Below are positions 33,707 to 37,408 of a stretch of DNA of 64,000 nt, in pieces. A program made the position numbers and the translations under genes. The stretch covers positions 1-64,000 of the forward strand of contig JAEUWB010000053.1 in the NCBI GenBank assembly GCA_016786595.1, read 5' to 3'. The DNA is from a bacterium (lineage in GTDB: Bacteria; Bdellovibrionota_C; UBA2361; SZUA-149; JAEUWB01). A model generated the notes under the pieces. The model was not told the origin of the DNA and made no database searches. It was given only the letters and a program-made list of their open reading frames with translations. The first letter of the stretch is position 1; every line of letters begins with the position of its first letter.

Positions 33707-33783
33707 GGGCCTGTAGCTCAGTTGGTTAGAGTGCACGCCTGATAAGCGTGAGGTCGGAAGTTCAAGTCTTCCCAGGCCCACCA
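33707..33783 (+). tRNA. tRNA-Ile (GAT), CCA encoded
   Basis: Acceptor GGGCCTG/CAGGCCC, D-arm GCTC/GAGT, anticodon stem CACGC/GCGTG with loop CTGATAA (anticodon GAT), T-arm GGAAG/CTTCC with TTCAAGT, discriminator A and genomic CCA at 33781-33783. Followed 119 bases later by tRNA-Ala(TGC), the pair usually found between 16S and 23S rRNA; no rRNA is present here. Confidence 0.96.
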
Positions 33784-33902
33784 TTTGACTCGTTAAATAT
33801 TGGCTCGCTTGTCGCGAGCCAATAAAGCCAGTCGAATGTCATGAGTAACTCTAGCTTGCTAGAGTTTGCTGAAAGACATAGATAGCATTGGTTTCCAATT
33901 AT

Positions 33903-33975
33903 GGGGTCATAGCTCAGCTGGGAGAGCGCCTGCCTTGCACGCAGGAGGTCGTCGGTTCGATCCCGACTGGCTCCA
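33903..33975 (+). tRNA. tRNA-Ala (TGC)
   Basis: Acceptor GGGGTCA/TGGCTCC (with G-T pairs), D-arm GCTC/GAGC, anticodon stem CCTGC/GCAGG with loop CTTGCAC (anticodon TGC), T-arm GTCGG/CCGAC with TTCGATC, discriminator A. CCA is not encoded. Pieces of its T-arm and acceptor recur in the repeat region immediately downstream. Confidence 0.96.
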
Positions 33976-34010
33976 TTCATCTTATAAATTCCCACTTACT
34001 TTTCCAGCCA

Positions 34011-34515: not shown

Positions 34516-35421
34516 TCAGCTTATGTTCTTTTCTTGATAAAACCACCCCAGACTTTGCCATTCTGCAAATGAAGACTGCACACTAACTGGGTCAATCGCA
34601 GATAATTCAGGACTGGCAAAGATTTGACTGATTACTTTATGGTCACGAATTTCAGAGAGAATTCGAAATTCATAATCTCGAAGTCGCTTATAGTAAACCG
34701 TAAACTCTACCCTGTGCACCGCTAGATAAACGTCTTCTCTTTCAGGAAGCATACGCTGAGTGACTGCAGTAGCTTCAAGCTGCCCCGTGCTTGCCTCAGA
34801 ATACGATTTCGTAATCTGATCCAGTCTGCCATTTCTCAAGGCAAGAACAAAATCGTCAAAAGGATAATCTAGGCGCAGTAATGTAATGTGCGGCTGTAAG
34901 TTTAAAGTCAATGCAGAAATATCTTGATTTACTAGGTCAGTTTGCTGGAGCGGCTCGTGATGCGCAGCATCAAAAGCAACAATCTGGGCCCATTCAAGAC
35001 TTGCAAGCTGAGCGGCAGCAGTAAAGATTTCACGGCTATCGCAATTTGCTAAAAGAAACGCCGAGAAGTTTATCCCTAAATCACGCAATGAATATGACCG
35101 AGAAGGATAAATCTTTAAATAATCAATCACTGTTTGGTAAAACGAATCATCTCCTAAGAGTGCATGCACTCCTGGGAAGTCTTCATAAATGCAGTCGATT
35201 AATCTAAACCAATACTGGCGATTATAAATCTCAACCCGCTCTAGACTTGTTAGTCTAGAATTCGGTTTAACCAGTGAAGCTGCAAGCTCAGCAGTATTCT
35301 GACCAGCGCTATCTGTAGGTTTTATTCTTTGCTGGTCCGTCAATTCTTCAAAAACAAAACTTGCAAACGCGCGTTGCAAATCTCTAAGTTGAGAAGATTC
35401 TTTGCTTGCTACCTCTTTCAT
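34516..35421 (-). CDS. bufC: DUF2063/BufC-like MNIO partner protein
   Basis: A 301-residue DUF2063 protein. The helical N-terminal domain is typical (LRDLQRAFASFVF; RLTSLERVEIYNRQYWFRLI; EDFPGVHALLGDDSFYQTV). A beta-rich C-terminal half is thought to bind the precursor peptide. In characterised bufferin systems this protein assists the MNIO enzyme in modifying cysteine-rich precursors. Its ATG overlaps the bufB stop (ATGA). The open frame extends upstream, but the ATG at 35421 with the overlap is the natural start. Confidence 0.88.
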   Translation of the reverse strand: MKEVASKESSQLRDLQRAFASFVFEELTDQQRIKPTDSAGQNTAELAASLVKPNSRLTSLERVEIYNRQYWFRLIDCIYEDFPGVHALLGDDSFYQTVIDYLKIYPSRSYSLRDLGINFSAFLLANCDSREIFTAAAQLASLEWAQIVAFDAAHHEPLQQTDLVNQDISALTLNLQPHITLLRLDYPFDDFVLALRNGRLDQITKSYSEASTGQLEATAVTQRMLPEREDVYLAVHRVEFTVYYKRLRDYEFRILSEIRDHKVISQIFASPELSAIDPVSVQSSFAEWQSLGWFYQEKNIS

Positions 35422-36299
35422 TCTGCCCCAGCTTCGACGTGAGCATCTTTTAAGGCTACGCTTTTTAAAGAGGACTGCAGAAATTTCTCTGCCTTTGAAG
35501 CCTCTTGATATACCTCTTCGAACGTTGGAATATTTGCATCCCATTCGAGTAAAGTGTTCGTTGGTCCGATTCTACGAATTAACTCGGCATACAATTCCCA
35601 AACTGGATCACAGACCGGTTGGTCATGCGTATCAAGTAAATAGCTACCAAAATCTCTGTGACCAGCCAGATGAATTTGCCCAACGCGGCTTAAATCTAAG
35701 CCGTTTAAATAGTCCAAAACATTAAATTCATGATTCTTAGATGAAACATAAATGTTGTTTACGTCGAGTAAAATCCCACAATCAGCTTTCTCAGCTACTT
35801 CTTGCAGAAATTCCCACTCTGTCATTTGCGATTCATTAAACTCAGCATAAGAACTTACATTTTCAACGCAAATTGGAACTTCGAGAAAATCTCTAATGTA
35901 CTTAATTCGCTCGACTGTGTTTTTGACAGCCGAAAATGTGTAGGGCAAGGGCAATAAATCGTGAGTGTAAGTTCCGTCGATACTGCCCCAGCAGAGATGA
36001 TCTGATAAAAATTTAGTATTGGTCCGCCGCACCAGTGCTTTAAGTTGACTTAGGTGAGTTCTGTCGTAACGATCGGTTGATCCGAAATATAGGGAAACGC
36101 CGTGCTGGACGACTTGATAGTGCTCGAGAATTTTATCAAGCACAGCCAAAGGTCTTCCGCCTTTGACCATGTAATTCTCAGAAATAATCTCAAACCAACC
36201 ACAAACAGGCTTTTTCTCGAGAATATGATCATAATGCGGAATTCGTAACCCCAGCCCGACACCTAGTTCGGTAAACCCATTATGACGATTTGCAGGCAT
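35418..36299 (-). CDS. bufB: MNIO (DUF692) multinuclear iron oxidase, BufB-like
   Basis: A 293-residue DUF692 TIM-barrel enzyme. Family motifs in order: LGVGLGLRIPHYDHIL, WFEIISENYM, HGVSLYFGS, KFLSDHLCWG, ICVENVSSYA, ILLDVNNIYVSS, QIHLAGH and DTHDQPV, which supply the His/Asp/Glu iron ligands. MNIOs modify cysteine, for example to oxazolone/thioamide or thiooxazole, in RiPP precursors. It sits between a cysteine-rich precursor gene and bufC. No clear Shine-Dalgarno sequence precedes the ATG; an A-run and a hairpin do. Confidence 0.93.
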   Translation of the reverse strand: MPANRHNGFTELGVGLGLRIPHYDHILEKKPVCGWFEIISENYMVKGGRPLAVLDKILEHYQVVQHGVSLYFGSTDRYDRTHLSQLKALVRRTNTKFLSDHLCWGSIDGTYTHDLLPLPYTFSAVKNTVERIKYIRDFLEVPICVENVSSYAEFNESQMTEWEFLQEVAEKADCGILLDVNNIYVSSKNHEFNVLDYLNGLDLSRVGQIHLAGHRDFGSYLLDTHDQPVCDPVWELYAELIRRIGPTNTLLEWDANIPTFEEVYQEASKAEKFLQSSLKSVALKDAHVEAGAE

Positions 36300-36317
36300 T
36301 TTTTTTTGTAGAGATGA

Positions 36318-36348
36318 GCGAGGCTAATCAATCAAGAATCAGCCTCGC
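36318..36348 (-). promoter_or_regulatory. Stem-loop between bufA and bufB
   Basis: Perfect 8-bp arms GCGAGGCT (36318-36325) and AGCCTCGC (36341-36348) with a 15-nt loop stand between the precursor stop and the enzyme start. No T-run follows on the coding strand, so it is more likely an mRNA processing/stability hairpin or partial terminator than a full terminator. Confidence 0.7.
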
Positions 36349-36369
36349 AGTTTTAAAACTAGAGCTTAA

Positions 36370-36699
36370 TTATTTCTTTGCAGCGCATCCAGCTTTTGCT
36401 TTGCAAGATGCTTTATCGGCAGCACCACCGCAGCTATCTTTGCCGCAACTTGCTTTAGCACTACAAGATGCTTTATCTCCTTTCTTCCCATCGCACTTAC
36501 AAGTGTCAGTACCGCAAGACTTTCCGTCGCAAGAATTTTTTCCGCAACAGCCGTTCATACCTTTACAGCTTGCTTTATCCGTAGCAGCTGGAGCTGTCGC
36601 AGCTCCAGAATTTGATTTGGCAGCTGGCGTACAGCCGATCATTAAGCCCATCAATGCTGCAGATGCCAAAGCAGCAGTAGTAGTCGTTATTTTGTTCAT
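36370..36699 (-). CDS. bufA: Cysteine-rich lipoprotein-like bufferin precursor
   Basis: A 109-residue protein. A signal peptide ends in the lipobox-like LMIGC (Cys23), then an Ala/Ser/Thr linker, then a Lys/Cys/Gly-rich region with twelve cysteines in short motifs: DKASCKG, GCCGKNSCDGKSCGT, DTCKCDGK, DKASCSAKASCGKDSCGG and ADKASCKAKAGC. It resembles bufferin precursors, metal (copper) chelating RiPPs made by BufB/BufC, but those usually have a cleaved Sec signal rather than a lipobox. AGGAAGGA precedes the ATG. Assignment rests on operon context and composition. Confidence 0.85.
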   Translation of the reverse strand: MNKITTTTAALASAALMGLMIGCTPAAKSNSGAATAPAATDKASCKGMNGCCGKNSCDGKSCGTDTCKCDGKKGDKASCSAKASCGKDSCGGAADKASCKAKAGCAAKK

Positions 36700-36729
36700 A
36701 GTCGTCCTTCCTAAATTTAAAGTTTCTTA

Positions 36730-36808: not shown

Positions 36809-37408
36809 CTATTTAAGCATTATTGTTCTAATGAATTCTGCAATGCCTGTTAAAAGCATTTGCACGGCAACTGTGATCAAAAGCATGCCCATTAAACGTT
36901 CAATCGCGATTAAACCCTTCTCGCCTAAGTAGCGAGTGAAATACCCAGAAAAGTAAATAATAATTGCAGCCATTAGCCAAGCAAGAAAAAGCGCGGTAGT
37001 CCAATCCAGCCAACGTGAAGGATCTTTACTCATAAGCAGTAGCGATGTTGCCATCGCAGAAGGTCCAGCCACATAGGGAATTGCTAGCGGCACAATAAAT
37101 GGCTCATCGTCAAAGTCTTCTCTCAGAGACTTATCGTGGCTAGGGAAAATCATACGGATAGCAATAATCATTAAAATTATCCCACCCGAGGTTGTTAACG
37201 CGGTCTCTGAAAGATGCAGTAGCTGCAAGAAATACTGCCCCAAGAACAAGAAACTCATTAAAACAAATAGAGCAATGATTAATTCGCGTAATACAACTTG
37301 CTTTTGCCTTGAGACCTCCACTTTTTTTAATGAGGTCATAAAAAGCGGGATATTCCCTAGTGGGTCGATCACAAAAAATAGCAGCACCGCAGCAGATAAG
37401 GTGGTCAT
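36809..37408 (-). CDS. MarC/UPF0056-family membrane protein
   Basis: A 199-residue protein with six helices. VLLFFVIDPLGNIPLFMTSLK near the start, GGIILMIIAIRMIF and PLAIPYVAGPSAMATSLL match the MarC family. The function is unsettled; older links to multiple antibiotic resistance in E. coli were not confirmed. It is upstream of bufA on the same strand with about 110 bases between. Confidence 0.92.
   Translation of the reverse strand: MTTLSAAVLLFFVIDPLGNIPLFMTSLKKVEVSRQKQVVLRELIIALFVLMSFLFLGQYFLQLLHLSETALTTSGGIILMIIAIRMIFPSHDKSLREDFDDEPFIVPLAIPYVAGPSAMATSLLLMSKDPSRWLDWTTALFLAWLMAAIIIYFSGYFTRYLGEKGLIAIERLMGMLLITVAVQMLLTGIAEFIRTIMLK

Follow-up and report, generated by a model that had tools for sequence, protein, structure and literature searches.

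A bufABC operon, probably of the Buf2 lineage, with a divergent and predicted lipid-anchored precursor

A three-gene bufABC operon is encoded in the window, the whole stretch of 64,000 nucleotides of bacterial DNA that was analysed, and its product is most likely a cysteine-rich, enzyme-modified copper-binding peptide that is lipid-tethered to the cell envelope. We consider it likely that the operon belongs to the bufferins of the Buf2 (Cys-Lys) lineage and that its precursor is divergent and lipid-anchored. Unusual is the combination of a degenerate 12-cysteine core in BufA with a matching change at the selectivity position of the enzyme.

Operon layout and enzyme phylogeny

The genes are arranged in the order bufA, bufB and bufC on one strand (Table 1). 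The initial annotation had read this succession of precursor, MNIO enzyme and DUF2063 partner as a bufferin layout, and the open reading frames at these coordinates together with the Pfam and NCBIfam matches confirmed it. BufB matched PF05114 with an E-value of 4.5e-105 and the MNIO_BufB model NF050167 with 349.7 bits, thus above the curated threshold of 310, while the score against the HvfB model, 245 bits, was far under the cut-off of 360. The conserved motifs of the family are retained in an alignment with 3bww, and bufB is the only MNIO gene in the genome. The likely start codon of bufC is the ATG at 35421, which overlaps the bufB stop codon (ATGA) and yields a protein of 301 amino acids. 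BufC homologues were present in 80 of 101 related loci, with 38-41 % identity in the best Buf2-type loci.

Table 1. Features of the bufABC region in the window
Feature	Position	Strand	Evidence or remark
tRNA-Ile(GAT)	33707-33783	+	
tRNA-Ala(TGC)	33902-33976	+	
bufC, DUF2063 partner (PME type 1), 301 aa	34516-35421	-	PF09836, E=7.1e-16
bufB, MNIO (DUF692) bufferin maturase, 293 aa	35418-36299	-	PF05114, NF050167, relative of PDB 3bww, tree
Codon of BufB Ala255, beside the proposed catalytic base Asp254	35535-35537	-	motif DANIPT
12-bp stem-loop between bufA and bufB	36318-36348	-	fold; similar in most related operons
bufA, Cys-rich precursor, 109 aa, Sec/lipoprotein signal ending LMIG|C23	36370-36699	-	ORF and translation
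Codon of lipobox Cys23, predicted lipidation site	36631-36633	-	translation; PS51257-like rule
Shine-Dalgarno-like AGGAAGG ahead of bufA	36706-36712	-	read from sequence
MarC-family membrane protein gene	36809-37408	-	109 bases upstream of bufA

The absence of an adjacent DoxX gene, also remarked on earlier, holds: the neighbours are a marC gene upstream and tRNA-Ala, tRNA-Ile and an HNH-like open reading frame downstream. MarC was rejected as an operon member and probably stands outside the system, because a homologue was found in none of the 101 related loci, those of the window's phylum covering only about 1.5 kb on each side. The two tRNA genes lie side by side; the usual place of a tRNA-Ile(GAT) and tRNA-Ala(TGC) pair is the rRNA spacer.

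The 80 closest MNIO homologues from named genomes belonged mostly to Acidobacteriota, Verrucomicrobiota and Planctomycetota, and in 74 of these loci the upstream gene codes for a secreted Buf2-type peptide whose core resembles HSCKGKNDCKGKGGCKSSDNGCKGKNSCKGKGGC. The Cys-Lys pattern of such precursors in the clade of BufB is seen in HSCKGKNSCKGKGGCK, and a further Buf2-type core is HSCKGKNSCKGKGGC. Against the BufA2 model NF050166, representatives of these relatives scored 37-49 bits, themselves under the cut-off of 60. The tree comprised 49 enzymes and placed BufB in a clade of 33 rows, with the enzymes of Buf2 operons (SH-aLRT 99); since the Buf2 rows had been fetched by similarity to the BufB of the window, this nearness is partly given by construction. 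The same does not apply to the exclusion of the phylum's own enzymes linked to EGKCG, CSGxK and DUF2282 precursors, all of which were placed outside the clade. Inside it were the enzymes of three operons of the window's phylum (L006-L008). Seven other loci of this phylum (L013-L016, L018-L020) encode mostly precursors with CSG[ED]K repeats and apparent type-I signals, and their MNIO enzymes form a clade of their own (SH-aLRT 96); the L018 precursor, the sole one of that group scanned, could not be matched convincingly to any curated family of precursors.

Horizontal transfer was considered as a possible origin of the operon, with regard to the clustering of BufB with enzymes of Verrucomicrobiota, Acidobacteriota and Planctomycetota and to the tRNA genes close by. 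Against it stand the G+C content of the operon, which is the window's own (0.423 vs 0.427), and the position of the L006-L008 operons in the same BufB clade.

Precursor core and selectivity position

BufA begins with MNKITTTTAALASAALMGLMIGC, followed by TPAA. Of its 13 cysteines, 12 follow the lipobox cysteine and constitute the core, with the elements KASCKGMNGC, GKNSCDGKSC, KASCSAKASC and KASCKAKAGC. Searches against Pfam (E up to 1), DUF2282 included, and NCBIfam (E up to 10), the BufA2 model NF050166 included, gave no match. The initial annotation had placed the cysteines outside the EGKCG and DUF2282 patterns, and indeed neither NF050137, NF050188 nor DUF2282 matched; that comparison had overlooked a third described group, Buf2 with its Cys-Lys precursor BufA2, which the enzyme phylogeny and the core motif make relevant. 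A close BufA homologue was not found in the 46 genomes of the phylum, the best hit being a weak low-complexity match (E 0.002, 37 % identity), and family-level searches returned only the window's own genome.

The proposed search against the known BufA and DUF2282 groups thus gave no family assignment, but a resemblance of the ordered core to the Buf2 profile was obtained. In four settings that differed in the profile and in the composition correction, the score of BufA was reached by 0, 0, 1 and 11 of 2000 composition-matched shuffles. Hence the order of the core, beyond its content of cysteine and lysine, resembles Buf2. Judged by its sequence, BufA is a degenerate 12-cysteine relative of the Buf2 core. 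Against the Buf2 reading count the missing match to the curated BufA2 model and the lack of a following lysine at 9 of the 12 core cysteines; only three are followed by one. The same features would agree with a metallothionein-like lipoprotein that binds metal mainly unmodified, the core having drifted from recognition by BufB and the modification being partial or lost. This is improbable: bufB and bufC are intact and of full length, the family motifs are kept in BufB, and L006 and L007 likewise show joint changes of the core and the selectivity position.

This position, Ala255 in BufB, is equivalent to Phe250 of FonB and Asp251 of BufB2. MNIO enzymes acting on Cys-Lys substrates have here, next to the catalytic Asp, a further Asp that was modelled in contact with the substrate lysine (PMC12668002). 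The FonB variants F250D and F250A still modified the native substrate (PMC12668002), thus this residue adjusts selectivity and is not decisive for activity. The motif reads DD in 73 of the 80 fetched relatives and DA (Asp254-Ala255) in the BufB of the window as well as in L006, L007 and L008. Lysine followed cysteine in a mean of 78 % of cases in the 70 Buf2 operons with Asp at the selectivity site, and the mean fraction was 0.50 in operons with another residue vs 0.78 with Asp (80 operons, Mann-Whitney p = 6e-4); this association is a lead, not proof, because the rows are related, only ten operons are of the non-Asp type and two of them, L008 and L050, are exceptions. The precursors of L006-L008 contain SCSG/SCNG, KASC or CKGKEGC repeats, and Cys-Lys pairs are few in two of them.

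Tentatively, we propose that the product of the operon is a lipid-anchored bufferin, that its maturase, having lost the Asp for recognition of Cys-Lys, accepts cysteines in varied contexts, and that the precursor could thereby drift to a dense 12-cysteine core, a co-divergence of the two within the phylum. If true, the replacement of Asp by Ala beside the catalytic Asp, paired with the loss of lysines behind the substrate cysteines, would offer a natural experiment on the choice of cysteines by MNIO enzymes. The repeats of L006-L008, similar in appearance, and the Ala that their enzymes share with BufB would also fit a distinct phylum-specific cysteine-rich group with KASC/SCSG repeats that serves another metal or a stress and not copper, and other metals are allowed for some MNIO products (PMC12452194). 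We give this explanation little weight: the L006-L008 enzymes nest within the Buf2 enzyme clade, and in Caulobacter vibrioides the function of Buf2 is like that of Buf1 (PMC12452194).

Lipidation, intercistronic hairpin and proposed route

The LMIGC sequence of BufA conforms to a rule like PROSITE PS51257, with the cysteine at position 23, precisely where the hydrophobic core ends, and G, I and M at positions -1, -2 and -3. Lgt and LspA are both encoded in the genome. Given the motif and these two enzymes, the product of BufA is likely a lipid-anchored chelator, as the initial annotation had supposed. Type-I signals are nearly general among related precursors: the lipobox rule applied to a single one of 74 Buf2 relatives (L100, VTGC, beside a close BufB), and the signals of relatives from the window's phylum terminate in AFA/ASA-type sites. 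An ordinary soluble periplasmic bufferin, with a coincidental LMIGC and cleavage by signal peptidase I just behind it, e.g., at CTPA|A, would be in line with these relatives. The placement of Cys23, the agreement with the lipobox rule and the presence of Lgt and LspA speak against such a soluble product, and we regard it as rather unlikely. In E. coli, the residue after the lipobox cysteine directs the lipoprotein to its membrane, Thr suggesting the outer one. For the lipid-anchored product, the Thr after Cys23 suggests outer-membrane sorting by this rule, which may not be that of the phylum.

The initial annotation had called the lipobox-like signal unusual, but precedents exist. Lipoprotein signals are predicted in about 16 % of Buf2 bufferins (PMC12452194) and occur in a subset of bufferins and oxazolins (PMC12636315); the oxazolin-type NedA was isolated in tri-acylated form, each of three motifs being lighter by 4 Da (PMC12636315). 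Bufferins with a lipid anchor are thus already a described kind. If the prediction is true, such bufferins are extended to a further, sparsely sampled phylum.

The 83-nt stretch with the stem-loop between bufA and bufB folds with -19.1 kcal/mol (z = -3.0). Among the gaps of 65 related operons, taken from loci L025-L104, the median z was -2.83 and 49 had z <= -2 with dinucleotide shuffles, mononucleotide shuffles having been used in a first pass; the operons are related to one another and do not represent 65 independent cases. Equal stretches inside bufB served as control, with a median z of -0.16 and 3 of 65 at <= -2 (Wilcoxon p = 2e-11). In 22 related operons a T-rich tail came after the best stem, as in a leaky terminator; the hairpin of the window is without such a tail. 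Terminators or hairpins are not mentioned in the MNIO survey text of PMC12452194. The hairpin may provide more precursor than enzyme, via partial termination or protection of the bufA message, and its wide distribution suggests how such operons make the precursor exceed the enzyme.

For chemistry, lipidation, sorting and metal binding, we infer the following route. BufA would be produced in excess over BufB and BufC, possibly with the aid of the hairpin between bufA and bufB. BufC would present BufA, still in the cytoplasm, to BufB, which would oxidise a subset of the 12 core cysteines, most likely to 5-thiooxazoles. The product would pass through Sec, Lgt would add a diacylglycerol to Cys23 and LspA would cleave before it. 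With Thr and not Asp behind Cys23, the product would probably be sorted to the outer membrane. There, at the membrane face towards the periplasm, it would chelate copper that is in excess and perhaps further soft metals. Buf1 bufferins contain 5-thiooxazoles and act as periplasmic copper chelators, and the chemistry of Buf2 has been characterised only in part (PMC12452194). We infer for BufA a membrane-tethered copper chelator.

Comparison with known systems

Buf1 bufferins with DUF2282 share with the operon the BufB family, the type of partner and the presumed chemistry; the window differs in having no DUF2282 domain, in number and spacing of the cysteines and in an enzyme of another clade. 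With HvfA and the oxazolins (EGKCG; NF050137, NF050188) an MNIO enzyme and a DUF2063 partner are common, but a KCGExKCG match is missing and the MNIO score is below the HvfB cut-off. The DAG-RiPPs NedA, a lipidated oxazolin, and DybA (PMC12636315) likewise are MNIO-linked precursors with a lipoprotein signal; BufA lacks both the EGKCG repeats of NedA and the CPACGMG motif of DybA (PMC12636315). Buf2 systems, with the Cys-Lys captophorins BufA2 (NF050166), have in common with the window the bufABC order, the BufB clade, the DUF2063 partner and a cysteine-rich core with SCKG/KNSC elements and 12 core cysteines, published Buf2 precursors having 6 or 12. From these systems the window differs in the failure of the BufA2 model, the few lysines after cysteine, Ala255 of BufB in place of the usual Asp and the lack of an adjacent DoxX gene. 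In this comparison, the bufABC operon probably encodes a divergent, lipid-anchored bufferin of the Buf2 lineage.
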